Assembly: GCF_030758975.1 (NCBI RefSeq)
Contig: NZ_CP132359.1
Coordinates: 3,013,366-3,077,365, forward strand
Direction: 5' to 3'
Origin: Bosea beijingensis
GTDB lineage: Bacteria; Pseudomonadota; Alphaproteobacteria; Rhizobiales; Beijerinckiaceae
Length of the DNA stretch: 64,000 nucleotides
The notes beneath the pieces are model-generated. The model was given only the letters and a program-made list of their open reading frames with translations, did not search any database and was not told the origin of the DNA. This document shows, one piece after another, positions 1,309-27,964 of this stretch. Position 1 is the stretch's first letter, and the number at the start of each line of letters is the position of its first letter. A program made the position numbers and the translations under genes.

Positions 1309-1415
1309 GGTCGCCGCCTCCTTGTGACTGTTGCGGACGCCATAAGCCCGAACCCGGTCTTTTGGCAGCGATATTTGGCAATGCTGGCGATTGCGACTGG
1401 CAATGCTGGCGGCCT

Positions 1416-2273: not shown

Positions 2274-2344
2274 GCGCTCGTCGCTCCGGGATCGCCGCGA
2301 ACTCCGTGATTATCCCGACAGGCGGTGCTGCTGCAACGAATGCG

Positions 2345-2941
2345 CTAGGCGTTCCAGTCGATTACGGCGCGGCCGCTGGTGAGATCCGTCACCAGCCGTG
2401 CGATGTCATCGGCTTCGGCCTTCGGGACGGAGACCGACAGCACGGCACCGGCATCGGTGAAAGCCTGGTCGCCGATCGTCACGCCGGGCAGCGCGCCGAG
2501 CCGCGCTCCCACGAGCGCCAGATCGCCGAAGCCGCAAGTGATCGCGGCCGAGATCGTCTCGATCAGTGGCAGCTTCTCGGCCTCGCGCAGGCACTGGGCG
2601 GCGCTGCCGCCATAAGCCCGGATCAATCCGCCGCTGCCCAGCAGGACGCCACCGAACCAGCGCGTGACGACCACGACGACACCGTCGAGCCCTTGCCCGT
2701 CGATGGCCGCGAGGATCGGCTTGCCGGCGGTGCCGCTCGGCTCGCCATCGTCGTTGAAGCGATAGTTCTGCCCGAAGCGCCAGGCCCAGCAATTGTGATT
2801 GGCCGCCGGATCGGACTGCGCGGCGATGAAATTCCTGGCCGCCGCCTCGCCGGCAACCGGACCGGCGACCGCGATGAAGCGGCTCTTCTTGATCTCCTGC
2901 CGGATTGTCGTGACCCCGACGAGGGTAAGGCGTGCGACCAT
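2345..2941 (-). CDS. YigZ/IMPACT family protein (UPF0029)
   Basis: A 198-residue protein with the IMPACT/YigZ N-terminal domain: the KKSRFIAVAGPV strand, then AAQSDPAANHNCWAWR and the glycine-rich DGEPSGTAGKPIL and TRWFGGVLLGSGGLIRAYG motifs typical of this family, followed by a ferredoxin-like C-terminal domain (DUF1949 type). Family members have been linked to translation and to proline dipeptidase-like folds, but the function here is unknown. I chose the ATG at 2941 because AGGAG sits six bases before it; an upstream ATG at 2956 adds five residues. It is divergent from the acyl-CoA synthetase at 3105, with about 160 bp between. Confidence 0.88.
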   Translation of the reverse strand: MVARLTLVGVTTIRQEIKKSRFIAVAGPVAGEAAARNFIAAQSDPAANHNCWAWRFGQNYRFNDDGEPSGTAGKPILAAIDGQGLDGVVVVVTRWFGGVLLGSGGLIRAYGGSAAQCLREAEKLPLIETISAAITCGFGDLALVGARLGALPGVTIGDQAFTDAGAVLSVSVPKAEADDIARLVTDLTSGRAVIDWNA

Positions 2942-3104
2942 GGGCTCCTGTAACACGCTCCGCTCGCAGGGGAAGCGGGGCCGAAGCTCAAGCGAAAACG
3001 CCCGGGATGTCTCGATGGACGGACCGGGCGCCCCTGGAACATGTCTGGCTTGATCGCGGAGAATCGCGTCTGCTGATCTTGCCTAGGACGGAAATGGCCG
3101 ATCG

Positions 3105-13314: not shown

Positions 13315-14235
13315 ATGAGGGCCTTGAGCTTCATCGATCGGATGTCTTCCAACAGGCTCCGTGGCTTGTTCCGGCCTCTCGCGGGGGTGCTCGCGGCATG
13401 CGGGCTGCCTCTCGTCTTCGCGGGCTGCGGCGAGCAGCGGTTGTCGAGCGATGAACTCGTGTCGGCCTCGCGCGCGATCACCGTCGACGTGGGCCGCGCC
13501 CTGGCGTTGCCTCCTTCCGGCAGCCTGCCTGTGACCGGTGTCATCCAGAGAACCTATGAGAACGCCGTCTCGCAGACAGTCTCCCTGGCAACCCGTGGCC
13601 GGACGCCGGGAGAGAACGCGATCCATGTCGCTTTCTTCACGGCCGCGGATGTTCCCGAGGCTGCCGGCGTCGAGGGCAACCTGCTGAAGGATCCCGGCAT
13701 CGACGACTTCGCCATCGGCAAGGAGATGGAGGAGCGTCTTCCCGGTGTCGCGATGGCGCCCTCCGCCGTGTTTGTCCAGAACGGTTACGGTCCATTCGGC
13801 TATGCCGTCGGTCGCGGCACCGGCGGCGAGGCCTGCCTCTACGCCTGGCAAAGACTGGCGGGCAAGGACAGTCTCTTTCGCCCGAAATCGGGCATGATCT
13901 CGGTGCGCCTGCGCGTCTGCGACCCCGCCATGACCGAGGCCTCGCTTCTGCGCCTGGCCTATGACTACGCGTTCAACGTCAAGCTGAAGCGCCCCGGCTG
14001 GAATCCGATCGGCGATGCGCCCGCGCCGGCGCCTGAACTCGGCCAGGCCGGCGCCCCGATCTATCCACAGGCGCCCCAGTCTTCCTTTGGCGAGGCCCCA
14101 CAGCGCCCGCAAGCCGTCCGTCCGCGGCCGGAGCGCCGGCGCAGCGCGGTGCCCGCGGAGCCGCAGGCCTCCGATCCGATCCCGACCAAGCCGCTTGAAG
14201 GATACCCCACCGTCCCGCCGCCGCCCGCGCCCTGA
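13315..14235 (+). CDS. bcsN: Cellulose biosynthesis protein BcsN, lipoprotein
   Basis: A 306-residue protein counted from ATG 13315; a GTG at 13309 and an ATG at 13342 are alternative starts. A hydrophobic segment ends in a lipobox (LPLVFAGC, Cys38 from ATG 13315), which suggests an outer-membrane-anchored lipoprotein. The body matches the BcsN family found in rhizobial cellulose operons: ITVDVGRALALPPSG, VIQRTYENAVSQTVSLATRG, then NGYGPFGYAVGRG and CLYAWQRLAG. The C-terminal ~75 residues are Pro/Ala-rich and low in complexity. BcsN's molecular role is not established. It lies 25 bp before bcsA in one operon. Confidence 0.85.
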   Translation: MRALSFIDRMSSNRLRGLFRPLAGVLAACGLPLVFAGCGEQRLSSDELVSASRAITVDVGRALALPPSGSLPVTGVIQRTYENAVSQTVSLATRGRTPGENAIHVAFFTAADVPEAAGVEGNLLKDPGIDDFAIGKEMEERLPGVAMAPSAVFVQNGYGPFGYAVGRGTGGEACLYAWQRLAGKDSLFRPKSGMISVRLRVCDPAMTEASLLRLAYDYAFNVKLKRPGWNPIGDAPAPAPELGQAGAPIYPQAPQSSFGEAPQRPQAVRPRPERRRSAVPAEPQASDPIPTKPLEGYPTVPPPPAP

Positions 14236-14260
14236 ACCAACCCGGATTGCCGAGAGCCCG

Positions 14261-16444
14261 ATGCGAACAGCGAGCTACGTCATCTTCTGGGCCGTCACTG
14301 CGATGGTCGTTATCGCGCTGGTCGCCTTGCCGATCAGCCTGCAGGCGCATCTGATCGCCGGAGCCATCGTGGTGGGCGCGATGATGGTGCTGAAGTTCCT
14401 GCGGCCCTACGGCGTCTGGCGCCTGATCGCGCTCGGCTTGGGCACCGCGATGGTGCTGCGCTACGTCTACTGGCGCACGACCAGCACCTTGCCGCCAGTC
14501 AACCAGCTCGAGGATTTCATCCCGGGGCTGATCGTCTACCTCGCCGAACTCTACAATATCGGCATGCTGGGCCTCAGCCTCTTCGTCGTGGCGATGCCGC
14601 TGCCGAAGCGCAAGACGCCGCCAATCGATCTCGCTAACGCACCGACGGTCGACGTCTTCGTGCCGACCTACAACGAAGAGCCCGAGATGCTCGCGACGAC
14701 GCTCGCGGCGGCGCTGGCGATGGACTACCCGGCAGGGCGCCTGAACATCTTCCTGCTCGACGACGGCGGCACCGACGAGAAATGCAACGCCGACGACTTC
14801 GCCGCGGCCAGCGCCGCCCGCGAGCGCCGCGCGACGCTGACGAAGCTCTGCGAAGGGCTCGGCGTCACCTATCTCACACGCGAGCGCAATCTCAGCGCCA
14901 AGGCCGGCAATCTCAACAACGGCATCGCCAACTCGCAGGGTGAACTGATCGTCGTCTTCGACGCCGACCATGCCCCGGCCCGCAGCTTCCTGACCGAGAC
15001 GATCGGTTATTTCGGGCAGGACCCAAAACTCTTCCTGGTCCAGACCCCGCATTTCTTCATCAATCCGGACCCGCTGGAGCGCAATCTCCAGACCTTCCGC
15101 TCGATGCCGTCCGAGAACGAGATGTTCTACGGCATCATCCAGCGCGGCCTCGACAAATGGGACGCCTCGTTCTTCTGCGGCTCGGCCGCCGTACTCCGGC
15201 GCGCGGCGCTTGAAACCACCAACGGCTTCTCCGGACGCAGCATCACCGAGGATGCGGAGACCGCGATCACGCTGCACGCCACCGGCTGGCACAGCGTCTA
15301 TGTCGACAAGCCGTTGATCGCGGGGCTTCAGCCGGCGACCTTCACCAGCTTCATCGGCCAGCGCTCGCGCTGGGCACAGGGCATGATGCAGATCCTCATG
15401 TTCCACCGCCCGATGTTCAAGCGCGGCCTCTCGCTGCCGCAGCGGCTCTGTTACTCCTCGTCGGCGCTGTTCTGGCTCTTCCCCTTCGCGCGCCTGACCT
15501 TCCTGGTCGCGCCCCTGTTCTACCTGTTCTTCGGCCTGGAGATCTTCACCGCCTCCGGCGCGGAGTTCATCGCCTATGTGCTGAGCTACATGGTCGTGAA
15601 CCTGATGATGCAGAACTACCTCTATGGCCGCTATCGCTGGCCGTGGATCTCGGAGCTCTACGAGTTCATCCAGTCGGTCTACCTGCTGCCGGCCGTGGTC
15701 TCGGTGCTCATCAACCCGACCAAGCCGACCTTCAAGGTCACGGCCAAGAACGAATCCCTCGAGACAAGGCGCGTCTCCGAACTCGGCCGGCCGTTCTTCA
15801 TCATCTTCGCCGTGCTCACGCTCGGCCTCGTCGCCACCTATTGGCGCATCATCACGGAGCCCTACAACGCCGACATCACTTTTGTCGTGGGGCTCTGGAA
15901 CATCCTCAACCTGCTGATGGCCGGCTGCGCGCTCGGCGTGGTCTCGGAGCGGCCGGAAGGGCGCGGCGCGCGGCGCTTCGCCGTGAAGCGCCGCGGCGAG
16001 ATCGCAATCGACGGGCGCAAGGCCCGGATCGTCACCGAAAACGTCTCCGTCGATGGCATCGCCGTCCGCGTGATGGCGAAGGAATTCGACAGGCTGCCGG
16101 TCGGTTCGATCGGGGAGATCACCGTCGAGACCACGATCGACATGCCCCGGGGCGCCCTGCCTGTGCGCGTCCGCCGGCTCGTGCCCGACGAAAAGGGATT
16201 GCTGCTGGGCTGCAGCTACGAGCCGACGGAGCCGGTGCATAGCCGCATCATCGCCGATCTCGCCTTTTCCGATGCCGAGAACTGGAGCCGGTTTCAGAAG
16301 GCACGGCGCCACAATCCCGGTGTGATCTATGGGACGCTGCGCTTCCTGCGCCTCGCCATTTTCCAGACGAGCCGGGGGCTGTCCTATCTCTTCGGTCTCT
16401 ACCGCCTGTCCCGCTCGACCACCCGGCCGGGAGCAGCGGAATGA
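14261..16444 (+). CDS. bcsA: Cellulose synthase catalytic subunit (UDP-forming)
   Basis: A 727-residue membrane glycosyltransferase of family GT2. All processive-synthase motifs are present: VFVPTYNEEPE near residue 132, LLDDGG near 166, the DAD triad near 234, TED near 329, QRSRW near 366 and the gating-loop FKVTAK near 490. A C-terminal PilZ domain carries RGARR (RxxxR) near 567 and NVSVDG (NxSxxG) near 594, the c-di-GMP-binding signature, so synthesis should be c-di-GMP dependent. Several membrane helices flank the catalytic domain. The start at ATG 14261 follows the bcsN stop closely; a longer open frame upstream overlaps bcsN and is not used. Its stop overlaps bcsB by four bases. Confidence 0.97.
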   Translation: MRTASYVIFWAVTAMVVIALVALPISLQAHLIAGAIVVGAMMVLKFLRPYGVWRLIALGLGTAMVLRYVYWRTTSTLPPVNQLEDFIPGLIVYLAELYNIGMLGLSLFVVAMPLPKRKTPPIDLANAPTVDVFVPTYNEEPEMLATTLAAALAMDYPAGRLNIFLLDDGGTDEKCNADDFAAASAARERRATLTKLCEGLGVTYLTRERNLSAKAGNLNNGIANSQGELIVVFDADHAPARSFLTETIGYFGQDPKLFLVQTPHFFINPDPLERNLQTFRSMPSENEMFYGIIQRGLDKWDASFFCGSAAVLRRAALETTNGFSGRSITEDAETAITLHATGWHSVYVDKPLIAGLQPATFTSFIGQRSRWAQGMMQILMFHRPMFKRGLSLPQRLCYSSSALFWLFPFARLTFLVAPLFYLFFGLEIFTASGAEFIAYVLSYMVVNLMMQNYLYGRYRWPWISELYEFIQSVYLLPAVVSVLINPTKPTFKVTAKNESLETRRVSELGRPFFIIFAVLTLGLVATYWRIITEPYNADITFVVGLWNILNLLMAGCALGVVSERPEGRGARRFAVKRRGEIAIDGRKARIVTENVSVDGIAVRVMAKEFDRLPVGSIGEITVETTIDMPRGALPVRVRRLVPDEKGLLLGCSYEPTEPVHSRIIADLAFSDAENWSRFQKARRHNPGVIYGTLRFLRLAIFQTSRGLSYLFGLYRLSRSTTRPGAAE

Positions 16445-18894
16445 AGCGCCTTCGCTTCCCGGCCCGTCTCGCCGCGATCGCATCCTGCGCGCTGTTTGTC
16501 GGCTCGCCGATTCCGGCGCAGGAGCCTCCGCCCGTCCAGCCCGGCCCGGCGCCCTTCATGATTGCGCCGCCTGCGCCGACCCCCGCAAGCCCTGTGCCTC
16601 CCGCGACGCCGGCTTCGGTTCCGGTGCCTGAGACCAGCCCGACGCCAGCCTCGGCCCTGCTGTTCAAGCCGCTGTTGCCGGCGGCGCGCGTCACGCTGGA
16701 AGGCGAGAGCGATGTCCGCAGTTGGGCATTCTACCTGACGCAGGACGAGGCGGCGGCCGATCTGAATCTCGACGTGGCTTTCCAGAACGCCCTCGTGGTG
16801 ATGCCGGAAGCCTCGCGATTGACGGTGCGCATCAATGGCGAGCGCGTCAGCGAGATGCCGATCGCCTCCTCCGACCGCCTGAAGCGCAGCTCCATCGCCT
16901 TGCGCAAGGGCCTGCTCCGGACCGGGCAGAATACGATCAGCTTCGAGGCTATGCAGCGCCATCGCATCGATTGCACGGTCGGCTCGACCTATGAGCTCTG
17001 GACGCGCATCGACGGTGCCGGCACGCGCCTGGCTTTCAGGAATGCGAGCGCCCGGCCCTTCGCCCTGCGAAGCCTCGACGATCTGCCGGCCATCGGCGCC
17101 GATGAAGGCGGGCTGACGACGATCGCCATCGTCGCGCCCGGCGCCGGGCGCGCGAGCGCCGCGAACAGCATCCTCGCCGTCGCCCAGGCGCTGGCATTGC
17201 GCGGGCGCTACGGGCAGGTCGCGGTCAGCGTGACCGAGCAACTGCCCGCCCGCACCCGGCCGGGCACGCTGACCGTCGCGCTCGGCACGAGTGAGGAGAT
17301 GCGCGCGCTGCTCGGGGCACTGACGGCCGATGCGGGCGGCCGCAGCTTCGTCGGCTTCGTCCCGAATCCCCAGAAAAGCACCGATCTCCTGCTCGTCACC
17401 GGCGAAGGCTGGCCCGATCTCGAAGCCCTCATCGCCAAGTTCCTGACCGCGCCCGTTGCCCGGCCGGCCAACATCAACCGCAAGACCATGGAGACCGCGA
17501 GCTGGCACGTGCCGGACGCGCCCTTCATCTCGGACAAGCAGGCGATCCGCTTCTCCGAGCTCGGCATTCCCACCCAGGAATCGACCGGGCGGCGCATGCG
17601 GGTGCGCGCCATCGTCGCGATGCCCGGCGATTTCTACGCCAATGCCTATGGCGAGGCGACGCTCTATCTCGACGGCGCCTATTCGCAGGAGGTCCTGCCG
17701 GGCGACAGCCGTATCGAGGTCTTCGTCAACGGCAACGTCGCGGCAACCGTGCCGCTGAATGCGACGACAGGTGGGTTGCTCCAGCAGTTCCCGATCACGG
17801 TCCCGCTGCGGCATTTCCGGCCGGGGATCAACGAGATCTGGATCGAGGCGGTGACGCTGGCCAAGTCCGATCTCGCCTGCGGCCCGGGCGCGACCCTGGC
17901 CGGCAAGAGCCGCTTCGCCCTGTTCGACACCACCGTCCTCTCGATCCCGAACTTCGCCAAGATCGGCGTCAGTCCCAATCTCGGGGCCGTCGCCGGCACC
18001 GGCTTCCCCTATTCGGTCGCCTCCCGCGTCGCGCTGGTCATGGGCCGCCAGGACAATGCCAATCTCAGCGCGGCCGCCACCCTGCTCGCGCGCATTGCCC
18101 GCAATGCCAGCCGCCCGCTTGCCGTCGATCTCCTCGCCGGGACAGCGGCCGTGGGCGACAGGCCGGCACTGATCGTCGGCGCCGCCGGCCAGATGCCGGC
18201 CGGCCTGCTGCCGCGGATCGGCATCGCCGACAATGTCCGCGCCACCTGGCCGCAGCGCGCCGATGCCGTGGTGGTGACGCCGGATGCCGAGGGCGCGGCC
18301 GTCTTCGACGCCGTCATCAACCGCCTGCAGGGTCGGGAGGCCACGCCCGAAGCCTCCGGCGGCGACGCGCCGACGACCGAAGCGATCCGCGATCGCTGGC
18401 GCAGCTCGCTCGGCGGCCCGCTGGCACGCTATTTCATCGGCTTCGACCAATGGCTCCAGCGCACCTTCGATCTTTCCTTCGCGCAATTGCGGGCCCCGTC
18501 GCGCGCGCCCTCTCTCTACGAACCGGCGGAGGGGACGGAGCTGATCGCAGCCCAGGCCGCCGATCCCGACACGCGACAGGTCTGGACCGCCTTCATCGCG
18601 CGCCGCGACGAGACCTTGCAGAGCGCCGTCAGCCGCATCGTCTCGCCTGGAAACTGGGCGGGCATGGCCGGCAAGATCACGGCCTTCCGCGGCGCCCAGG
18701 AGGCGCATGTCATCTCAGCCGACAGCACCTCCTTCGTCATGACGCGGCCCTTCAACCTCGCGAATATGCGGCTCGTCTTCGCCAACTGGATGTCCAGCAA
18801 TATCGGCATCTACGCGCTGGCGCTGCTGATCGCCTGCATCGGGCTCGGCATTGGAACCTCCCTGATGCTCGGGCGGTTGGGTCGGCGATCATGA
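16441..18894 (+). CDS. bcsB: Cellulose synthase regulatory/periplasmic subunit BcsB
   Basis: An 817-residue protein with a signal peptide (MKRLRFPARLAAIASCALFV), a Pro-rich linker, then the BcsB body of alternating jelly-roll and flavodoxin-like domains. Recognisable stretches are LEGESDVRSWAFYLTQDEA, RLTVRINGERVSEMPI and VPLRHFRPGINEIWIEAVTL. One C-terminal membrane helix (IYALALLIACIGLGIGTSLM) anchors it beside BcsA. BcsB guides the nascent glucan through the periplasm and is required for BcsA activity. The ATGA overlap with bcsA and the TCATGA junction with bcsZ indicate translational coupling. Confidence 0.95.
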   Translation: MKRLRFPARLAAIASCALFVGSPIPAQEPPPVQPGPAPFMIAPPAPTPASPVPPATPASVPVPETSPTPASALLFKPLLPAARVTLEGESDVRSWAFYLTQDEAAADLNLDVAFQNALVVMPEASRLTVRINGERVSEMPIASSDRLKRSSIALRKGLLRTGQNTISFEAMQRHRIDCTVGSTYELWTRIDGAGTRLAFRNASARPFALRSLDDLPAIGADEGGLTTIAIVAPGAGRASAANSILAVAQALALRGRYGQVAVSVTEQLPARTRPGTLTVALGTSEEMRALLGALTADAGGRSFVGFVPNPQKSTDLLLVTGEGWPDLEALIAKFLTAPVARPANINRKTMETASWHVPDAPFISDKQAIRFSELGIPTQESTGRRMRVRAIVAMPGDFYANAYGEATLYLDGAYSQEVLPGDSRIEVFVNGNVAATVPLNATTGGLLQQFPITVPLRHFRPGINEIWIEAVTLAKSDLACGPGATLAGKSRFALFDTTVLSIPNFAKIGVSPNLGAVAGTGFPYSVASRVALVMGRQDNANLSAAATLLARIARNASRPLAVDLLAGTAAVGDRPALIVGAAGQMPAGLLPRIGIADNVRATWPQRADAVVVTPDAEGAAVFDAVINRLQGREATPEASGGDAPTTEAIRDRWRSSLGGPLARYFIGFDQWLQRTFDLSFAQLRAPSRAPSLYEPAEGTELIAAQAADPDTRQVWTAFIARRDETLQSAVSRIVSPGNWAGMAGKITAFRGAQEAHVISADSTSFVMTRPFNLANMRLVFANWMSSNIGIYALALLIACIGLGIGTSLMLGRLGRRS

Positions 18895-19910
18895 GATGGA
18901 CGCTGGCAGCGATGGTCGCGACCTTCCTCGGCCTGGCGCCGGACGTGCGCGCGGCCGTGCCGGCTGATGCCTGGGCGCTCTATCGGCAGAAATTCGTCAC
19001 GGCGGAAGGGCGGGTCGTCGACGATCTCAACGGCGGCATCAGCCATAGCGAAAGCCAGGGCTACGGCCTGCTGCTGGCCTGCCTCGCCGACGATCGCGCC
19101 ACCTTCGCCAGCATCTTCGCCTTCACCCGTACCGAGCTTCTGATCCGCGACGACGGGCTCGCGGCCTGGCGCTGGGACCCGAAGGCGAGCCCGCATGTCA
19201 CCGACATTAACAATGCCAGCGACGGGGACCTGCTGATCGCAGATGCCCTCGCTTGCGCAGGCAGGCGCTGGAACATGCCGGCCCACAGCGCCGCCGCGCG
19301 CCAGATCGCGACCTCGCTCGCAAAGGTCGCGTTGCGGCAGCACACCGGCCAGACCTGGCTCATGCCGGGCGCTGTCGGCTTCTCGGAAAAGGACCGGGCC
19401 GACGGGCCGGTGATCAATCCGTCCTATTGGGTCTTTGAAGCCTTCCCGACCTTGGCGAAGCTGACCGGGGACCAGCGCTGGATGCAGGTCCAGGCCAGCG
19501 GCCTGAAGCTGCTCGACGATCTAGCCAAGCGGAAGATGCCGGCGCCGGAATGGCTCTCGATCAAGGCCGAGCCGAAGCCTGCGGAAGGTTTTCCACCCCA
19601 GTTCGGCTACAACGCCATCCGCATCCCGCTCTACCTGCTGCGCGCCGGGCTTGGCGACAAGGCACGGCTCGCCCCGTTCCGCCAGGTTTGGGCCGGTGGC
19701 ACGGCGGTGGTCGATGTCGCCAGCGGCAAGCCGGTCGAGCCCTTGCAGGACGCGGGTTACCGCATCCTTTCCGCGGCCATGGCCTGCGCGCTCGACGGCA
19801 CGCCGATCCCGGCCGAGCTCAAGGCCTTCCAACCCACCGCCTATTACCCGTCGACGCTGCATCTCCTGTCCCTCTCGATGCTGGGCGAGAGGTATCCGCA
19901 ATGCCTGTGA
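18891..19910 (+). CDS. bcsZ: Endoglucanase of the cellulose operon (GH8)
   Basis: A 339-residue secreted endo-beta-1,4-glucanase. The signal peptide is MRWTLAAMVATFLGLAPDVRA. The GH8 general acid is Glu54 in NGGISHSESQGYGLLL, and the acidic motif NNASDGDLLIADAL (Asp111/Asp113) supplies the partner carboxylate. BcsZ trims cellulose chains during export. The true start is the ATG at 18891, overlapping the bcsB stop by four bases; the open frame runs further upstream inside bcsB but without family similarity. The stop overlaps the next gene by 10 bp. Confidence 0.94.
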   Translation: MRWTLAAMVATFLGLAPDVRAAVPADAWALYRQKFVTAEGRVVDDLNGGISHSESQGYGLLLACLADDRATFASIFAFTRTELLIRDDGLAAWRWDPKASPHVTDINNASDGDLLIADALACAGRRWNMPAHSAAARQIATSLAKVALRQHTGQTWLMPGAVGFSEKDRADGPVINPSYWVFEAFPTLAKLTGDQRWMQVQASGLKLLDDLAKRKMPAPEWLSIKAEPKPAEGFPPQFGYNAIRIPLYLLRAGLGDKARLAPFRQVWAGGTAVVDVASGKPVEPLQDAGYRILSAAMACALDGTPIPAELKAFQPTAYYPSTLHLLSLSMLGERYPQCL

Positions 19911-22051
19911 AGCCTATCCTCATCGCTGCCGCCGTCTCGGGCCTCGCCTTCTACGCCCTTGGACGGTACGGCCATGACACGGTCTCGCGCGAACCCGCGC
20001 CGGCGATGATCCAGCCTGCCTTGGCGCAGGGGCCGCAACGGCCGCCGCAAGCTCTGGCCGAGGTCGCCCCGGCGCCGGTCGAGCCGGGGCAGAGCGGCGC
20101 ACCGAACCGCCCGGCAACGACCCAGCCAACGCCGCCGAAAGTCGATGAAGCCGCCTTGCGTTATTTCGCGGCACAGGGCGATACCCGCCGCTACGAGGCG
20201 GAGCTCGCCCGGCTCAGGGCGCTCTATCCGGAATGGAAGCCTCCGACCGACCTCACCTCGCAGGGCCAGGCCGGCGACCCCGAGCTGGAGCGGATGTGGC
20301 GGCTCTTCGCCGAGGGCAAATACGGCGAGGTCCGTGCCGCGATCGCCCAGCGCGGCAGCGCCGATCCGAACTGGCGCGCGCCGGCCGATCTAGCCGCCCA
20401 GCTCGACACCACCGAAGCGCGGCAGCGCCTCGTCAACGCCTCGAACGCACGGCAATGGGAGCAGGTCATCCGGCTGGGTACCGAGACGCCGGCCATGCTG
20501 ACCTGCGCCAGCGTCGATGCGCTCTGGCGCGTCGCCGAGGCCTTCATCCAGACCGGCAAGCCCGAGCGTGCGCGCGATGCCTATGCCTATGTCCTGACCA
20601 ATTGCGCCAATCCGGCCGAGCGTACCGGCACGATGCAGAAGGCGCTCGCCACCCTGCCGGAAAACCTCGTCGAAGTCTTGCTGTCGCAGGAACAACAGAA
20701 CGAGTTCGCGAGCATCCGCGACGAGATCGCGAGGCGCCATATCGGCAAGGCCGCCGACGATCAGACGCAGAAGGCGACGCCTGCCGAAATCCAGCGCATC
20801 GAGGCTCTGGCCAATGCGGCCTCGACGCCCGACGACGCCATCCTGCTCGGCTTCTACACGCTCCACCATGACGAGCCGGCCAAGGCCGCTGCCTGGTTCC
20901 AGACGGCGCTCGCGCGCAATGGCGGCGCCAAGGCGGCCGAGGGAGCTGTGCTCGCCTTGGGCGAGACCAGGAAATACCAGGAGGCCGAAACGCTCGGCGC
21001 GCAGTGGCTCGAAGCCGGCCCGGCCAATCGCAAGGCCTATCTCGACGCCATCACCGCGCTGCTCACCCAGGAGCCGCCACCGCGCCTGGACCGCGCCGTG
21101 ATCGAGCGCATCGTGAAAGCCGTGGGGCAGGATAAATACGCAGCCGGCGCCGGGGCGCTCGGCTGGTATGCCTATAATGCCGGACAGATCGGCCCGGCGG
21201 GAACCTGGTTCGAAACGGCGCTCTCCTGGGATCGTGGCAATGAGCCGGCGGCTTACGGGCTGGCCCTGGTCCGCGAACGCCTGCGCGATCGGGTGGGCTT
21301 GCGCACCCTCGTTGCAGAATGGGGCAGCCGTTCGCAGAGGATCGCGGAGGTCCTCAATCCCCGGCGCGCGCGGGCGGCTCCCACAGCCGAGCAGCAGCGC
21401 AAAACACGTCAGACGCCAGCGGCGGAATCGGCCGATCGCCGACCAACACCCATCGTCAGGGCCGGCCGCGACGAGCCGATCGCACGTGATGCTGCCTCGG
21501 CTCCGGAGCCCGCGAGACGGTCGGACGCTCCCCGTGCAACTGGTGGCAATTGCGGAGGCGGTGGCTCAGGCGCCGCCGCCTTGCAGCGGGGCTGGTGCCT
21601 CCTCAATCTCAAGCGGCCGGTCGCGGCAGCCCAGGCTTTCGAAGCCGCGCGGCGCGACGGCAATGCGCAGGTCTCCTCCGATGCCGCTGCAGGTCTGGCT
21701 TATGCCAAGATGCAGCAGGGACTGACGACCGAAGCGACCGTAGCTGCCAGCGCCGCCAACCTGCCGCCGGCGCGCCGCAAGGAGCTGTCCACGCTGCTCC
21801 TCGCCGAACAATTCTATGCCCAGTATGACGCCAAGGATTTCAACGGCGCGCTCATCACCTTGTCGCAGCGCCGCCGCCTGGCGCCCGAGACGACCGACCT
21901 GATGCTGATGCGCGGGTGGTCCTATTACAATCTCGGCCGATACGGGGACGCCTCGCATATCTTCGAGACGCTGTACAAGGTCAACAAGTCGCCCGAGGCC
22001 CTGTCCGGCCTGACGGCGATCCGGGATGTCACCAAGCTCAACGCCCAGTGA
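19901..22051 (+). CDS. TPR-repeat protein of the cellulose operon (BcsC/BcsK-like)
   Basis: A 716-residue protein with one N-terminal hydrophobic segment (PILIAAAVSGLAFYALGRYG), a Pro/Ala-rich linker, and repeated helical TPR-like units such as AYVLTNCANPAERTGTMQKA, ILLGFYTLHHDEPAKAAAWF and LMLMRGWSYYNLGRYGDASH. A low-complexity insert lies around residues 480-550. It is far shorter than enterobacterial BcsC (about 1150 residues) and shows no C-terminal outer-membrane barrel, so it probably acts as a periplasmic scaffold and export needs a separate pore. It overlaps bcsZ by 10 bp and closes the operon. Confidence 0.82.
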   Translation: MPVKPILIAAAVSGLAFYALGRYGHDTVSREPAPAMIQPALAQGPQRPPQALAEVAPAPVEPGQSGAPNRPATTQPTPPKVDEAALRYFAAQGDTRRYEAELARLRALYPEWKPPTDLTSQGQAGDPELERMWRLFAEGKYGEVRAAIAQRGSADPNWRAPADLAAQLDTTEARQRLVNASNARQWEQVIRLGTETPAMLTCASVDALWRVAEAFIQTGKPERARDAYAYVLTNCANPAERTGTMQKALATLPENLVEVLLSQEQQNEFASIRDEIARRHIGKAADDQTQKATPAEIQRIEALANAASTPDDAILLGFYTLHHDEPAKAAAWFQTALARNGGAKAAEGAVLALGETRKYQEAETLGAQWLEAGPANRKAYLDAITALLTQEPPPRLDRAVIERIVKAVGQDKYAAGAGALGWYAYNAGQIGPAGTWFETALSWDRGNEPAAYGLALVRERLRDRVGLRTLVAEWGSRSQRIAEVLNPRRARAAPTAEQQRKTRQTPAAESADRRPTPIVRAGRDEPIARDAASAPEPARRSDAPRATGGNCGGGGSGAAALQRGWCLLNLKRPVAAAQAFEAARRDGNAQVSSDAAAGLAYAKMQQGLTTEATVAASAANLPPARRKELSTLLLAEQFYAQYDAKDFNGALITLSQRRRLAPETTDLMLMRGWSYYNLGRYGDASHIFETLYKVNKSPEALSGLTAIRDVTKLNAQ

Positions 22052-22141: not shown

Positions 22142-22240
22142 TCAGCGGGCTGATGTGGCGCCCCGGATGATGTCGACCGGGTTGAGCCGGGCCGGCACGT
22201 ATCCGGCGGTGTTGGCCGAGACCAAAGCGAAACCGGCGGC
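22142..22240 (-). pseudogene. C-terminal remnant of an ABC permease (MacB/FtsX type)
   Basis: The last ~32 codons of a leftward frame read LIAAGFALVSANTAGYVPAR and then LNPVDIIRGATSAR before a stop. This is the closing motif of FtsX/MacB-family permeases (A-R-L-x-P-V-x-x-I-R-G). Nothing of the rest of the gene is present; sequence upstream belongs to an integrase remnant, so two truncated genes abut here. Confidence 0.6.
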
Positions 22241-22242
22241 GA

Positions 22243-22395
22243 TCAGATAGTGCGATGATCCGAGACCAGTTTCTGGACCGCCGGACGGTAGAGTTTCCGG
22301 CCTTCGATCACGACGACAGGCTGGGTAAGCGGAGGAACATCCTTGCGGCGGATGCGGACTTGGAACTTGCCTCGATGTTTGCGGATCGTGGCCAT
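22243..22395 (-). pseudogene. N-terminal remnant of a phage-type tyrosine integrase
   Basis: Starting at the ATG at 22395, the leftward frame reads MATIRKHRGKFQVRIRRKDV and PPLTQ, the arm-binding N-terminus of rhizobial tRNA-targeting integrases. The similarity fades after about 25 residues and the frame stops after some 50, so the catalytic domain (R-H-R-Y) is missing. It lies just beyond the 3' end of tRNA-Arg, the usual site of an integrase gene in a tRNA-integrated island. Confidence 0.6.
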
Positions 22396-22497: not shown

Positions 22498-22574
22498 TGG
22501 CGCGCCCGACACGATTCGAACGTGTGACCTTTGCCTTCGGAGGGCAACGCTCTATCCAGCTGAGCTACGGGCGC
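22498..22574 (-). tRNA. tRNA-Arg (anticodon CCG), intact
   Basis: Read on the minus strand, a full cloverleaf is visible: acceptor GCGCCCG paired with CGGGCGC, D-arm GCTC...GAGC, anticodon stem TTGCC/GGCAA around the loop CTCCGAA (anticodon CCG, reading CGG), T-arm ACACG-TTCGAAT-CGTGT, discriminator G and an encoded CCA. The gene is bordered downstream by an integrase remnant and upstream by its own promoter. Confidence 0.97.
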
Positions 22575-22634
22575 TAACCGTGCAGGCTGGATAGCCGATC
22601 CCCGCCGCTTCGGCAATGCGGGATTTTGGATGAG
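22535..22634. repeat. 100-bp direct repeat, copy 1 (tRNA-Arg 5' half plus promoter)
   Basis: This segment, from the tRNA anticodon loop through its promoter, recurs in the same orientation at 26718-26817 with one mismatch in 100 bases. The two copies bound a 4.1-kb block holding bgsB and bgsA. Confidence 0.93.
22588..22616 (-). promoter_or_regulatory. Promoter of tRNA-Arg
   Basis: On the minus strand, TTGCCG (22611-22616) and TATCCA (22588-22593) are separated by exactly 17 bp and end 13 bp before the tRNA 5' end, a good match to a housekeeping sigma promoter. The same promoter is copied at 26771-26799 with one change in the -10 box. Confidence 0.65.
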
Positions 22635-22938
22635 GCGATGAGATTTCCGCGCTGGATATGGCTCTGTTGTGCCGATCGCCGCTCAGGGAGCTCGACAGGA
22701 TATCAGGATACCTGGTCCATCAAAGGGTTCCGAAGATCCCGCGCTCCGCCTGGATCCGCCTTCGGTAGGCAACGCTCTCTCAGGCGCCGGCAGGATACTG
22801 AGTTTATCCGGCGCATGCGGACTTGGCACGAGACCTACTGCTGTGATCCGCTCGCGCTCAGGACACGCGCTACATTCGCCGACGTCGAGAAGACCGCGCG
22901 CCGCGGCCGATCGCTCTGCCACGACCCGCCTTCGGGCT
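22635..22938. other. Intergenic region between tRNA-Arg promoter and bgsA
   Basis: About 300 bp between the repeat and the end of bgsA. I see no credible coding frame, RNA or strong hairpin here. Confidence 0.6.
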
Positions 22939-24894
22939 TCAGTCGAAAAGCCTGCGCACGACGGCGGTGGTCACTCCCAATGTCGCGACTTGCGCAAAGG
23001 CTCTGACATAGTTGCCGGCATAGAAGCCCCGGATCATCTCGATGCGCGTCTTCAGCTCCTCGTCGAACTTGATCGCGAAACCATTCGCCAGCTTGCGAAC
23101 GATCGTGCCGCGGACAGCGCGCCCGCCGATCGTGCAGATGACGGCCGTGCCCAGCGGTGCAGGAGGTTCGCCGCGCAGCCCAGCCCCGGTGATGGAAATG
23201 TCCGTCAGCCGCAGGATCAGGCTTTGCCCGGCACATTCGAGCATGACCGCCTCGTCCGTCGCGAAGCGCTCCGCCTTGCGGCGGCGTGGCTGTTCGATGC
23301 AGACGAAGCATACGATGATGAGGACAACGAGATTATACCAGCTCCAGGCGAAGGCCAGGCCTCCCGAAGTCAGGCTGTCGCCGCGCACATGGATCGCGAA
23401 GGCGTAGACCAGCCCTGCCAGGGTGAGGAGAATGATGCTGCCGTAGATCTTGACGAGCGGCCATTCGATGAAGCGCTGGCCCCGGTCGCCGCCTTTCGCT
23501 GTGACCTTGAATTTCTGGTTCCGGGGTCGCAACAGCCCGGTGAAGACCGCTTTCAGGATTGCCGGGGCCGCGATGAACTGGGACACGTCGGTCATGAAGA
23601 CCAGCGAGCGACCGCGCGAAATCCAGCTCATGGTGACCGAGTGCCACAGGAAGAACGGCAGGAAATAGCCGAGCAGGTCGTAGAGATCGGCATCGACGGT
23701 ATGGATGCCGAACAGCAGGTAGCCGACCGGGACGAGCAGTCCGAGCAGCTTCGCGATATAGACCGCAGTCCAGTTGAGGAATGTGTCCACCAATGACAGG
23801 CGGTCGATGAAGGTGAGGCTCGATGTGCGCGAGAATGGGCCGCTGCGCCCGCGCGTGATCTGCATGAAGCCCAGGCACCAGCGGCCGCGCTGCGTGATGT
23901 ATTCCTTGAGGCCTTCGGGAGCGAGCCCGAGCGTGAGCGGCTCGTTCAGATAGGCGGTGGTGAAGCCTGTCTCCTTCAGCCGCAGTGTCAGCAGATAGTC
24001 TTCCGTGACGGAATCGGTCGGAAAGCCGCCGATCCGCATCAGCGGCTCGAAGCGTATGACCGACGAGGTGCCGCAGCAGAACGCCGCGCCCCAGGCATCC
24101 TTCGAGGCGAGCACGACATCGAAGAAGAAGCGCTGCTCGTCCGGCCAGACATGGGCGGCGGCGAGATTGGTCTGGATCGGGTCGGGGTTGATGAAATGCT
24201 GCGGCGTCTGCACCAGACCGACGCCGGGATCCCGGAACAGGCACAGCGCTCGCGACAGGAAATCCGGGAGCGGGACAAAATCCGCGTCCAGGATCGAGAT
24301 GAACGCCGGAGGATCCGGCAGGGTCGCCAGATGCGCCAGAGCGTGATTGATGTTGCCGGCCTTGGCATGGCTGTTGTCCGGCCGGGTCAGATAGCGGCAA
24401 CCCAGGCGCTGCGACAGCTCCTCGAGCCACGGCCGGCGCCCGTCGTCGAGCACCCAGACGCGGTAATTGCCGTGATTCATCCCGGTCGCGCCGATCATGG
24501 TGCGCTCGAGGATCGCCTCTTCCTCGTTGTAGGTGCAGATCAGGACGTCGACCAGCGGCGGCTCCAGGCTCGCGAGCCAAGCCTTGTTCGCCTCGACGTC
24601 TGTCGAACGGTTCCGTGTCCGGCACAGGAAGATCGAGGCCAGGATCGCCGCCAATAGCGACGCCGCTTCCGCTGCGAGGAAAATGCTGCCCGCCGCGAAA
24701 TCGGCGGTCCAGCCGATCGGCGGCAGCGTCGACGTCACCCGCCAGTGGAAATAGCGCAGCAGCAGCAAGAGCCCGACGCCGACCATAAGCATACGCGATG
24801 GCGTCTGGTCATGCCTCAGCAACGGCGTGAGCATGACGGCAAGCCCGGCTGCGGCGAGGCCAGGCGCAAGCGCAGTCAGGAGATCTTGCGTCAC
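22939..24894 (-). CDS. bgsA: Processive GT2 beta-glucan synthase, BgsA-like, with PilZ motif
   Basis: A 651-residue membrane glycosyltransferase distinct from BcsA of the neighbouring operon. Synthase motifs are all present: ICTYNEEE at 119-126, Asp150-Asp151, DAD at 203-205, TED at 297-299, QRGRW at 335-339 and gating-loop FKVTAKG at 462-468. About seven hydrophobic helices flank the catalytic domain. The C-terminal domain has RRKAER (RxxxR, Arg539-Arg543) and DISITG (DxSxxG, 565-570), the c-di-GMP-binding PilZ signature. The nearest known pattern is the Sinorhizobium mixed-linkage beta-glucan synthase BgsA or the curdlan synthase CrdS. The order (membrane-fusion gene first, 4-bp overlap) matches the bgsBA operon. 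The polymer made is inferred, not shown. Confidence 0.8.
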   Translation of the reverse strand: MTQDLLTALAPGLAAAGLAVMLTPLLRHDQTPSRMLMVGVGLLLLLRYFHWRVTSTLPPIGWTADFAAGSIFLAAEAASLLAAILASIFLCRTRNRSTDVEANKAWLASLEPPLVDVLICTYNEEEAILERTMIGATGMNHGNYRVWVLDDGRRPWLEELSQRLGCRYLTRPDNSHAKAGNINHALAHLATLPDPPAFISILDADFVPLPDFLSRALCLFRDPGVGLVQTPQHFINPDPIQTNLAAAHVWPDEQRFFFDVVLASKDAWGAAFCCGTSSVIRFEPLMRIGGFPTDSVTEDYLLTLRLKETGFTTAYLNEPLTLGLAPEGLKEYITQRGRWCLGFMQITRGRSGPFSRTSSLTFIDRLSLVDTFLNWTAVYIAKLLGLLVPVGYLLFGIHTVDADLYDLLGYFLPFFLWHSVTMSWISRGRSLVFMTDVSQFIAAPAILKAVFTGLLRPRNQKFKVTAKGGDRGQRFIEWPLVKIYGSIILLTLAGLVYAFAIHVRGDSLTSGGLAFAWSWYNLVVLIIVCFVCIEQPRRRKAERFATDEAVMLECAGQSLILRLTDISITGAGLRGEPPAPLGTAVICTIGGRAVRGTIVRKLANGFAIKFDEELKTRIEMIRGFYAGNYVRAFAQVATLGVTTAVVRRLFD

Positions 24895-26309
24895 GGAGCG
24901 GAAACCTGCTCGCCGAACACGACGCGGCCGGTGCGTCCCACGGCACAGACCTGTCCGGTGCCGAGGTCAGGCACGGAAACCGTAACCCGGTACGGTTCCT
25001 TGCTCAGCGCGGCGGGTTCGATCGCAAGATTCGCCGCTGCGGTGGCACGGCCAGTCAGGTTGACGACCTTGCCTTGCAGATCAGTGCCGCCATCGGCCGG
25101 AACGAAGCGGGCGGAGCTGCCGACCGAGAGGCGGTTATAGACGGATTCCGTGACATTCGCCGTCACGACCGCCGTCGAGCAATCGATCAACCGGGCGAGG
25201 TCCTGGCCGACGCGAACCTGTTCGCCGGGGGAGACCATGGCCTCCCAGATGCGTCCGGTGACCGGTAGCGTCATGGCGACGTCCGACTGGGCCTGATGGC
25301 GCGCACGTGTCGTGGCGAGCGCGGCTTCCAGCTGTTTCGTTTCCGCATCGAGGCCCGTCAGTTCCGAGCTGAGATCGGCGATGCGCTGGCGCATCTCGTC
25401 GCCGCGCTGCACCGAGCTCGGCCGGTCGTTGTAGCTGTCGCCGAGGAAGATGCGGTTGCGCGCGGCTGCAAGCTCGACGGTCGCGGCCGTGAGCCGATGG
25501 CGCGTCGAGGTTTCGGTCCCTGTCGCGATTGCGACCTCGCGCGACAGGCGGTCGAACTCTGCGGCCGTGACGTTCCCGGTCCGCGCCAATGTTTCGGCCC
25601 GGCCATAGGCGGCCGTCGCCTCCTCGCGTCTGGCGACGGCGACGCCGATCTGGCTTTCGAGCTCGGCCGCACGGGCGGTCAACTGCTCGATCCTGCCCAG
25701 CCTGAACGCCTCGGCCTGCCGGTCGAGATCAGCCTCGGCGCTCTGCGCACTTGCGAGCTTGCTGCTCATCGTCACCCGCTGGCTCGCCAGCCTGCCGAGG
25801 GCCTGCTCCAGCTCGTCGAGCCGGCCGCGATCAGCTCGCGGATTGACGATGCGGAGCAAGGTCGAGCCTTGCGCAAGAGCATCGGACGTTGCCAGTGCCG
25901 CCGTCGATGCGACGACCTCGCCCGCGATGGGCGAGCGCAGCGTCATCAGCCGTGCGTTGACTACGGCCTCGACGCTGGAGGTCTGAAGCAGCGTGCGCAA
26001 CGGCACCAGCCCAAAAACGGCGACAACGGCCGCCCCCAGCATAACCTTTCCAGCTCGCCGGACGGCAGGCGTCAGCGCAGGCCGCCTGGCCGGCTGCTGC
26101 GCAACGCTTCCCGCCTCGGGCTTGGGTTCGCCGCCGTCGACATATTGTTTCAGTCTGCTCTGCAGGGCGCGGGCGTCCTGAGGCTCCGGACCACCGACAG
26201 ACGTAACCGGAGAAGCAGCGTCGCGAGCCGCCGCCGCAGCTTGACGCGCTTTCGCGTTGCCGGCTTCAAAGCTTCTGGATTCCTTGGAGCGAAGACCTTG
26301 ATGCGCCAT
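24891..26309 (-). CDS. bgsB: HlyD-family membrane fusion protein, BgsB-like
   Basis: A 472-residue protein with a cytoplasmic N-terminus of about 85 residues, one membrane helix (VMLGAAVVAVFGLVPLRTLL) and a large periplasmic part. That part has a split lipoyl-like domain (LMTLRSPIAGEVVASTAALA, then LPVTGRIWEAMVSPGEQV), a long coiled coil (about residues 165-330) and a C-terminal beta-barrel region (CSTAVVTANVTESVYNRL). It has the layout of BgsB from the rhizobial mixed-linkage glucan operon, thought to carry glucan across the periplasm. It is the promoter-proximal gene of the pair and overlaps bgsA by four bases. Confidence 0.8.
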   Translation of the reverse strand: MAHQGLRSKESRSFEAGNAKARQAAAAARDAASPVTSVGGPEPQDARALQSRLKQYVDGGEPKPEAGSVAQQPARRPALTPAVRRAGKVMLGAAVVAVFGLVPLRTLLQTSSVEAVVNARLMTLRSPIAGEVVASTAALATSDALAQGSTLLRIVNPRADRGRLDELEQALGRLASQRVTMSSKLASAQSAEADLDRQAEAFRLGRIEQLTARAAELESQIGVAVARREEATAAYGRAETLARTGNVTAAEFDRLSREVAIATGTETSTRHRLTAATVELAAARNRIFLGDSYNDRPSSVQRGDEMRQRIADLSSELTGLDAETKQLEAALATTRARHQAQSDVAMTLPVTGRIWEAMVSPGEQVRVGQDLARLIDCSTAVVTANVTESVYNRLSVGSSARFVPADGGTDLQGKVVNLTGRATAAANLAIEPAALSKEPYRVTVSVPDLGTGQVCAVGRTGRVVFGEQVSAP

Positions 26310-26717
26310 CTGCTACGTCCCTGTTAGCGAACGGGACGATCGAGCAGAGCGCTTTCTGGAACCTTAAATCTGGGTCCCTAGCCAAACGAACGCAAGAATG
26401 AGGGAAACAAGAGATGAAGCGGTTCAGGCGGAATTGTTGAAGATATCATTAACCTAGCGCAGCTCGACAAGCTTGCTCGGCCCCTCAACCGCTCGTCGAT
26501 CTCGAAGGAGCGGACGCTTGCATCGCGAAGTCGTGGAATAGTCGGTGTGGCACAATCCCCAAATTCAGAGGGGGTATGATCTCCGACACTGTCTGGCTCA
26601 ACGGCCGTGGCGTGATTGTGCCGATGTTGATCGCTCGCTGCCTCGCATCGACGAAACTTTGAGTAATAGATTGAAATATAAGATATATTTTGAGGCGCTC
26701 TAAGCTGCGATTCCCCG
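26310..26717. other. AT-richer intergenic region upstream of bgsB
   Basis: About 400 bp with no convincing gene. Composition is clearly more AT-rich than the surroundings, most strongly at about 26650-26705, which suggests foreign or decayed DNA. The bgsBA promoter should lie here. Short open frames on either strand match nothing I recognise. Confidence 0.55.
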
Positions 26718-26817
26718 CTTCGGAGGGCAACGCTCTATCCAGCTGAGCTACGGGCGCTAACCGTGCAGGCTGGACAGCCGATCCCCGCCGCTTCGGCAAT
26801 GCGGGATTTTGGATGAG
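26718..26817. repeat. 100-bp direct repeat, copy 2 (tRNA-Arg 5' half plus promoter)
   Basis: It equals 22535-22634 except one base. The left end is exactly the anticodon loop (CTTCGGAG); the tRNA 5' half occupies 26718-26757 on the minus strand and the promoter follows at 26771-26799. The single change turns the -10 box TATCCA into TGTCCA. Confidence 0.93.
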
Positions 26818-26869
26818 ACGCAGTTCTCCGAAGGCAAAGGTCACACGTTCGAATCGTGTCGGGCGCGCC
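26718..26869. pseudogene. Split tRNA-Arg(CCG): 5' half and 3' half in opposite orientation
   Basis: The 5' half with promoter lies on the minus strand (26718-26757) and the 3' half on the plus strand (26826-26869). Both break at the anticodon loop and share the 8-bp inverted repeat CTTCGGAG (26718-26725) and CTCCGAAG (26826-26833). Inverting the 116 bp between these ends would place the 5' half directly before the 3' half on the plus strand and restore every stem of the cloverleaf seen in the intact gene at 22498-22574. The rebuilt gene would end in GCCG rather than an encoded CCA. As it stands neither half can give a tRNA. Confidence 0.88.
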
Positions 26870-26958
26870 GCGGCTGTGGCAGGGCCGCCACGCAGGGATG
26901 GACAGCCTGTGCCTGCTGTCTATCCTCTTCATCCGTTTAGCAACATCGCGGGCCTCCC

Positions 26959-27675
26959 ATGCGCACAGCCGAGTTTGCAGTTCAGGCTCCTTCTCCAACG
27001 ACTTTGCCGGTCTTCGGAGCTTTCACTCGCTTTCCCGTTCGACGAATCTACTGCATCGGCCGCAACTATGTCGCGCATGTCCGCGAGATGGGCGGCAACG
27101 AAACGCGCGATTTTCCCTTGATCTTCCAAAAGCCAGCCGATGCAGTTGTGCAGGACGCTGGCGTCGTTCCCTACCCCCCGATGACCGATGATTTCCATTT
27201 CGAGCTGGAACTCCTGGTCGCGATGAAGTCAGGAGGCTACGATATCCGTCAGGAGTCCGCGCTTTCGCATGTTTATGGCTACGGCATCTGCCTGGATATG
27301 ACCCGCAGGCGCCTGTTGGATACGCCGGCCGGTCCCGGCCTCCCGTGGGAGCTGAAAAAGTCCTTCGATCACTCGGCGCCCTGTGGATCGATCCATCCGG
27401 TCGAGCAGGTAGGGCATCCGGCGAGCGGCCGCATCAGGCTTGAGGTCGATGGCCGAGTTAAGCAGGATTCTGACCTTTCTCTGATGATCTGGCGCACGCC
27501 CGAGATCATTGCGACCTTGTCGAAATACTATGCGCTCGAGGCGGGCGATCTGATCATGACAGGAACTCCGCACGGTGTCGGTCCTGCTCTTCCGGGCAAT
27601 GTCTTGGTCGGCACGATCGAGGGCCTCGGGAGCTTGACGGTAACCATCGGCGATAAGTCGAATAAGCCCAACTAA
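26959..27675 (+). CDS. Fumarylacetoacetate hydrolase (FAH) family protein
   Basis: A 238-residue protein with the FAH fold: RRIYCIGRNYVAHVREMG, PLIFQKPADAVV, a metal-binding acidic segment DDFHFELELLVAM, the GYGICLDMTRRRL stretch (normally GYxxxNDxxxRD), and the closing signature EAGDLIMTGTPHGVGP. Members cleave C-C bonds in beta-diketo acids or act as acylpyruvases or isomerases in aromatic degradation; the substrate here is unknown. It stands alone, lying between the split tRNA-Arg and a third, 25-bp copy of the tRNA-upstream repeat, so it may have arrived or been moved by recombination there. Confidence 0.87.
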   Translation: MRTAEFAVQAPSPTTLPVFGAFTRFPVRRIYCIGRNYVAHVREMGGNETRDFPLIFQKPADAVVQDAGVVPYPPMTDDFHFELELLVAMKSGGYDIRQESALSHVYGYGICLDMTRRRLLDTPAGPGLPWELKKSFDHSAPCGSIHPVEQVGHPASGRIRLEVDGRVKQDSDLSLMIWRTPEIIATLSKYYALEAGDLIMTGTPHGVGPALPGNVLVGTIEGLGSLTVTIGDKSNKPN

Positions 27676-27707: not shown

Positions 27708-27732
27708 CGCTTCGGCAATGCGGGATTTTGGA
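27708..27732. repeat. Third, 25-bp copy of the tRNA-Arg upstream region
   Basis: Twenty-five bases identical to 22606-22630 and 26789-26813, in the same orientation, covering the -35 box side of the tRNA promoter. No tRNA sequence accompanies it. It lies 33 bp after the FAH gene. Confidence 0.75.
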
Positions 27733-27964
27733 GGAAGCGCGATTCTTCGCGGGCTAGCGGCACTTGCTCGCATCGTCTCGCGCGTCGCGCGGTCGCGGCT
27801 CAGGCCACTGCTACTGAACGCCCATAGTGGGCGGGCACGAAGCCAACAGCCAGGCTCAGGCATGTGCGCCTACGCCCACGCCGCGACTGTCGGGAAACCG
27901 ACGAGAATGGCCATTTCAGGGTGTGAACCCGACTTGGGAATCCGTCGTTAAAGCCTTAGTTACC

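Follow-up and report, generated by a model that had tools for sequence, protein, structure and literature searches.

The window, by which we mean the whole 64,000-nucleotide stretch of Bosea beijingensis DNA analysed here, contains a split tRNA-Arg(CCG) site in which the 5′ half lies on the minus strand and the 3′ half on the plus strand (Table 1). An earlier note on the sequence had placed the halves at 26718-26757 and 26826-26869, which we confirmed, and its observation that both breakpoints carry the same eight bases in inverted orientation is borne out (CTTCGGAG and CTCCGAAG). The displaced 5′ half is preceded by a copy of its promoter region (P), which ends 5 bp short of the inverted 3′ half (hereafter 3inv). 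An exact 44-nt copy of the tRNA would be expected about 4e-20 times in the genome for random sequence, and the match is therefore far beyond chance. Scripted inversion of 26718-26833 gave a product that ARAGORN recognised as a complete 76-nt tRNA-Arg(ccg), as had been worked out by hand in the earlier note, and the same program found no tRNA at the split site in its present orientation. The open reading frame at 26735-26998 encodes an antisense-tRNA peptide (GAPDTIRTCDLC) and was taken as spurious.

An intact tRNA-Arg(CCG) gene, overlooked previously, lies inside the same window about 4.1 kb from the displaced half, and is the one intact copy found in this genome among the matches listed. Two repeats relate it to the split site: 22535-22637 matches 26718-26820 in direct orientation over 103 nt at 98% identity, and 22499-22542 matches 26826-26869 perfectly, in inverted orientation, over 44 nt. 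The order along the plus strand is intact tRNA, glycosyltransferase, HlyD, element end, 5′ half, P copy, 3′ half and FAA-hydrolase-family (FAA) gene. In plus-strand reading, the intact P has a -35 box CGGCAA (22611-22616) and a -10 box TGGATA (22588-22593) at 17-bp spacing, the boxes being assigned by eye from conservation. Of the 52 units of P and tRNA sequence (modules) compared across Bosea, 50 retain GCTAT in the -10 region, the exceptions being our displaced copy, with an A to G change in its -10, and an eroded displaced copy in genome G009. Because its -10 is altered, the displaced unit of the window is probably silent.

Table 1 Features of the tRNA-Arg(CCG) region (window coordinates)
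Feature	Position	Strand	Remarks
Integrase-like N-terminal stub	22220..22395	minus	MATIRKHRGKFQVRIRRK..., 50 aa then stop; adjoins tRNA 3′ end
Intact tRNA-Arg(CCG)	22498..22574	minus	CCA encoded; read as reconstituted attR
Promoter region P of intact gene	22575..22637	minus
Element body	22885..26717	minus	common to sister genome G072, 88% over 22885-26736
Cargo: family-2 glycosyltransferase with PilZ domain	22939..24894	minus
Cargo: HlyD-type protein	24891..26309	minus
Element left end	26658..26717	minus	minus reading CGGGGAATCGC...AAAATAT...; outer limit approximate
Displaced 5′ half of tRNA-Arg(CCG)	26718..26757	minus	exact nt 1-40; read as attL, crossover within CTCCGAAG
Displaced promoter P	26758..26820	minus	-10 now TGTCCA (plus-strand TGGACA 26771-26776)
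Displaced P, -35 box	26794..26799		plus-strand CGGCAA; assigned by eye
Inverted tRNA 3′ half (3inv)	26826..26869	plus	44/44 nt tRNA-identical; part of conserved module upstream of P
Outer 11 nt of 3inv block, GCGGCTGTGGC	26870..26880	plus	conserved, not tRNA-derived
FAA-hydrolase-family gene beside att site	26959..27675	plus
Decayed 3inv-P module without 5′ half	27708..27799	minus	P cut off beyond -35 region; probable older att site

An element remnant between the two sites

Between the intact tRNA and the displaced 5′ half lies an element of about 4.2 kb carrying the HlyD and glycosyltransferase genes, which we regard as a remnant without the integrase of the Bosea elements. Sister genome G072 shares this body and its left end, which lie beside the tRNA-Arg gene there; a decayed 3inv is kept at that tRNA, and the displaced 5′ half is only a stub. 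A cellulose-synthase-like cluster (glycosyltransferase with PilZ domain, BcsB and TPR protein; 14015-22051, plus) adjoins the tRNA hotspot.

There are traces of further insertions. At 22758-22781 (minus), 24 nt match the anticodon region of the tRNA at 88% and are perhaps what is left of an older displaced 5′ half. By its likeness (by eye) to the start of a MATIRK-type tyrosine integrase, the stub at 22220-22395 is a probable relic of an element on the 3′ side, and since it adjoins the tRNA 3′ end, that side would also have taken up elements. Displaced 3′ halves in tRNA orientation occur in G009 and G015. On the same side, G024, G005 and G034 have what appears, by eye, to be the end of a large serine recombinase.

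Displaced 5′ halves run into a shared element end

We searched 67 Bosea genomes with the junction pattern GAGCGYTGCCCTCCGAAGCKGGRWWT, allowing one mismatch. This gave 20 junctions in 18 genomes, our own copy included, and none with the reversed-pattern control. In a collection of named genomes, from which records very near our genome may be absent, the pattern matched 11 loci, all in Bosea. A 76-nt tRNA query against 61 genomes likewise returned, among the matches listed, extra same-orientation 5′ halves (nt 1-40) besides the intact gene in many Bosea genomes. Beyond CTCCGAAG, 16 of 18 displaced 5′ halves at the loci compared run into a shared CTGGG(TTT/AAT)CGC...AAAAT; the next five bases are CTGGG in 14, CTGGA, CGGGG and CTCGG in one each, and unrelated in G015. 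The left end in the window resembles these ends but is the one that reads CGGGG rather than CTGGG. The displaced 5′ half lies 2.0-51.4 kb from the intact tRNA in 13 genomes (4.1 kb in ours), a list that leaves out a fourteenth entry, G015, measured between two 5′ halves. An intact tRNA with a same-orientation 5′ fragment upstream is the layout of a tRNA genomic island that displaces the 5′ part of its target.

We conclude that 26718-26820 is very probably a displaced attL, left when an integrative element recombined with tRNA-Arg(CCG) at the anticodon loop, with no need for a local inversion. The anatomy of the site, the junctions, their distribution and the sister comparison are observed; the identity of the recombinase, the direction of insertion and any role of 3inv are inferred. 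Weighing against this reading are the CGGGG left end, the missing 3inv at our intact tRNA and at other modules, and the position of the integrase in related elements together with its absence from some of them. A tyrosine integrase would probably recombine the element at the loop. The right end of these Bosea elements appears to hold a promoter and a 5′ half of the tRNA, which on insertion would join the native 3′ half, so that in the working gene at 22498-22574 the promoter and the 5′ half would come from the element. The old promoter and 5′ half would remain at the opposite end, directed into the element, and the 3inv at 26826-26869 would already have lain upstream of P before insertion.

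The origin of the promoters may be blurred. Of 17 pairs of P copies within a genome (15 displaced-intact and 2 displaced-displaced), 10 match at 94-100%, against a between-genome mean of 77%, and this near-identity could reflect gene conversion between promoter copies or old, vertically inherited elements. The best P match lies within the same genome for only 19 of 31 modules, ties included.

In G015, the tRNA-Arg(ccg) gene (L050 8475-8551, G015:C1) is only 82% identical to ours among the matches listed. Two perfect 5′ halves lie upstream of it, and two 3′ halves, likewise perfect, are found at a distance of 46-60 kb. Its native tRNA may have been replaced by a carried gene.

An integrase family accompanies the attL junctions

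Relatives of a 331-aa G010 protein, a Phage_integrase (PF00589), were found at 76% identity or more in 9 of the 67 genomes. All nine are among the 18 attL genomes and none is among the other 49 (Fisher 1e-6, a p value that is only a guide as the genomes are related). In eight of the nine, the gene or a fragment of it lies between attL and the intact tRNA, always on the tRNA strand; the G034 copy has a stop and sits on another contig. The G022 and G064 copies are fragments, and the gene is open at full length inside six integrated elements (G006, G007, G010, G018, G024 and G075). Weaker matches occur in G008 and G017 (37-38%), in G083, G065 and G061 (28-29%) and in G030 (35%, partial), and G024 has an additional 63% fragment.

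The family is present in 8 of the 13 elements compared and, because the other five (our own element included) lack it, the integrase could be cargo. Its distance from the left end is 4-37 kb, and from the right end it is also separated by kilobases, the G022 fragment excepted; such a position is unusual. As the gene is thus usually not adjacent to an element end, its role is one that we infer. Furthermore, of 8000 proteins scored, 6521 matched this large family at E 1e-20 or better, so the presence of an integrase proves little by itself; the few named relatives among the best 120 matches belong to genera such as Methylobacterium and Mesorhizobium.

A DnaQ-like exonuclease (RNase_T) is encoded in 15 of the 67 genomes, namely in 11 of the 18 with attL versus 4 of the 49 others. 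In 3 of the 13 elements (G009, G019 and G024) the gene starts 219-220 bp in from the left end; in those of G006, G010 and G064 it lies deeper. Our genome has one at G000:C1:3090733-3091353 (L137), 74% identical to the element type and about 50 kb from the att site, which perhaps marks further element remains.

These data bear on whether a mobile element is needed at all. If homologous recombination had simply duplicated a segment around the tRNA, a 103-nt direct repeat such as the one observed would result, and our genome indeed gave no match to the G010-type integrase family. However, the breaks fall exactly at the anticodon loop and are joined to a conserved end in 18 genomes, and an integrase lies inside eight of these elements. 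We consider such a duplication very improbable.

The inverted 3′ half is a recurring module

A unit of 3inv, P and 5′ half recurs in tRNA orientation at both intact genes and displaced sites. We scored the 48-bp 3inv block at a cut-off of 40, the best of 260 shuffles reaching 34, and of the 52 modules, drawn from 36 Bosea genomes, 37 have it upstream of P (25 of 34 intact and 12 of 18 displaced). Another 15 fall short of the cut-off, 9 of the 34 intact, our own among them, and 6 of the 18 displaced. Accordingly, the region upstream of our intact tRNA has no 3inv, and our displaced site has a perfect one.

Conservation was calculated from the 37 modules of the loci compared, excluding the 15 below the cut-off. 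Mean pairwise identity is 0.33 in the flank, 0.71 in the outer 11 nt, 0.83 in the acceptor and T-arm, 0.75 on the anticodon-stem side, 0.39 in the loop, 0.56 in the linker and 0.93 in the -35. The loop (0.39) thus appears to vary freely while the arms (0.75-0.83) are kept. By eye, changes in the T-stem of 3inv are mostly uncompensated, which bears on the idea of an RNA hairpin. We also considered 3inv as coding sequence and rejected it, the variable positions showing by eye no three-base period.

Copies also occur outside complete modules. A pattern of the outer part of the block and the T-arm, with three mismatches allowed, gave 33 matches in 20 of 67 genomes and none with the reversed control, more eroded copies exceeding this limit. 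A module profile built from 31 sequences, which also matches the tRNA 3′ half itself, was run on 17 regions of 16 genomes. Decayed modules without a 5′ half were seen at 27708-27799 in our window, twice in G024 and twice in G010, and 3inv with little or no P three times in G078:C2, three times in G064 and once in G019. Solitary copies, all in one orientation, divide blocks of 0.4-1.6 kb in L106 (G078:C2:135291, 136034 and 137281) and L111 (G064:C1:4405583, 4406031 and 4407712); two of those in G064 are, by eye, alike on one side only.

In 14 order-level or basal genomes, we scored the 190 nt that precede the tRNA gene and did not find 3inv, the best score being 30 (G030 is left out of this set, a second copy in G025 has 19 nt upstream, and one G057 row is a 5′ half). 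A P with -35/-10-like boxes is recognisable by eye in G025, G030 and G033. Since P is seen in these outgroups and no 3inv scores above 30, P looks native and 3inv an addition made in Bosea.

Two explanations of the module may be weighed. It may have arisen once, early in Bosea, by inversion or fold-back, the elements then inheriting a neutral scar. The outgroup result agrees with this, as do the 15 of 52 modules that have lost or eroded 3inv and the likeness of 3inv to the tRNA, which extends weakly past the anticodon loop into the D-arm (in G021 over a 60-nt match of 87%, among the matches listed). Against it, the block, including its 11 non-tRNA nucleotides, is better conserved (0.71-0.83) than the loop or the linker, unless gene conversion acts. 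A single neutral origin is therefore a tentative proposal, which we put at somewhat less than an even chance. Alternatively, 3inv could be a working second, inverted core-like site of the attachment site, about 110 bp from the crossover, that positions the recombinase or folds a single-stranded attP. Conserved arms, a free spacer and a 48-bp block with its own non-tRNA outer part would suit such a function, and solitary copies of 3inv could then also delimit small gene blocks. We consider this unlikely. If it were true, a matching spacer, as in the window, could let the promoter and 5′ half flip.

A 116-bp inversion accounts poorly for the site

The earlier note had proposed a fossil integrase-mediated inversion or an invertible tRNA locus, with the anticodon loop as the crossover site. 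Recombination at the loop did shape the site, but an inversion as its outcome is not supported. We examined a version in which a complete tRNA-Arg(CCG) once stood in front of the FAA gene and an integrase or RecA turned 116 bp of it around, either in the recent past or as a reversible event. The complete tRNA in the inverted product speaks for it, as do the full 8-bp inverted loop and the perfect 44-nt half at our own site. However, tRNA-Arg(CCG) has not been lost, the intact copy being in the window, and each half is explained separately by a conserved module: the 5′ half meets a conserved element end found in 18 of 67 genomes, and 3inv recurs. The flipped product would end in ...GCGCGCCG and not in the CCA encoded by all 34 intact modules of the Bosea loci compared, and the promoter of the flipped gene would keep the mutated -10. 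Inverted sites with an identical spacer are present in the window, yet only 2 of the 37 aligned modules retain the complete inverted loop; three more were read by eye, in the attL of G022, in a truncated copy of G071 and in one solitary copy of G078:C2.

The note had suggested a comparison with sister strains. A pattern that links the end of the 5′ half to the 3′ half and to GCGG, the flank of 3inv in the window, was searched in the 67 genome assemblies with three mismatches allowed, flips with a more eroded flank escaping it. The 12 matches were 11 ordinary intact genes with CCA and our own unflipped copy, so no flipped signature was detected in these assemblies, and the two orientations expected of a tyrosine-recombinase switch were not seen among them. 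We consider this inversion very improbable.

Displaced attL remains the reading that we adopt, and the sister loci indicate a separate, larger rearrangement. Our left flank (L138 and window 1-5649) is colinear with G071 over about 22 kb. In G071 (G071:C1:709797-715432 versus window 1-5649) the flank ends about 0.4 kb from the module upstream of the tRNA, and in our genome the tRNA points the opposite way, with 16.8 kb of other DNA between it and the flank. Because the G071 flank lies directly upstream of its tRNA, our tRNA region is inverted relative to the left flank. This rearrangement, a point against the attL reading, is larger than, and distinct from, a 116-bp flip. We also considered whether our tRNA is the flipped state of the G071 arrangement, and rejected this, as GCGG still flanks 3inv and CCA is still encoded in the intact gene.

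The FAA gene has an 81% homologue in G078:C2 that lies between a 3inv on its 5′ side and a piece of P behind it, so that gene and 3inv boundary seem to travel together. Against this, eight more FAA matches of 76-78% (L070-L077) start inside the gene without a module.

Comparison with known systems

In the invertible promoter or gene switches of tyrosine recombinases, short inverted sites flank the promoter. Unlike these, the Bosea sites show no second orientation, and the spacer is unconserved in most copies. Integron cassette arrays combine attC sites, genes in one orientation and IntI. The 3inv copies share one orientation per array, but the neighbouring genes in G078:C2 point both ways (one judged by eye), unlike those of a cassette array.

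Suicidal integrase elements of the pTN3 type have the att site inside the integrase gene, which is split on integration. In Bosea, a full-length open integrase is found in six integrated elements. Archaeal pTN3-like plasmids target the 5′ half of a tRNA gene, and the restored gene uses the integrase promoter (PMC8371274). According to the same review, 5′-half targeting of this kind is seldom met in bacteria, and in its Thermococcus nautili example the integrase is split into int(N) and int(C), whereas the Bosea integrase is whole and internal (PMC8371274). Insertion at the 5′ end of a gene with supply of a new promoter is described for dusA islands and for ICE SXT at prfC (PMC8409611); these differ from the Bosea elements in targeting protein genes and not a tRNA.

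Literature searches, whose coverage left out most subscription papers, returned no description of an inverted tRNA 3′ half in such sites, no close match among work on tycheposons and, among the papers listed on islands, none naming Bosea. Islands that displace a tRNA promoter and 5′ half are known, and the inverted 3′ half in their sites is the part we did not find described. It is rare for an island to replace these parts of a tRNA gene, and the result is a chromosomal tRNA under an element promoter. Bosea offers a series of such insertions at tRNA-Arg(CCG), intact and decayed, many keeping an inverted tRNA fragment.

A close parallel is provided by the Islander database, which records a 5′ tDNA fragment in 159 of 3919 islands (PMC4383910). 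As in those islands, the Bosea sites combine an intact tRNA with a same-orientation 5′ fragment upstream and a crossover in the anticodon region. Unlike them, the Bosea sites have a recurring inverted 3′ half, which would not be recorded there as an island end, the orientation filter rejecting fragments in the opposite orientation (PMC4383910). Because island finding of this style discards inverted fragments, similar sites may be overlooked elsewhere.
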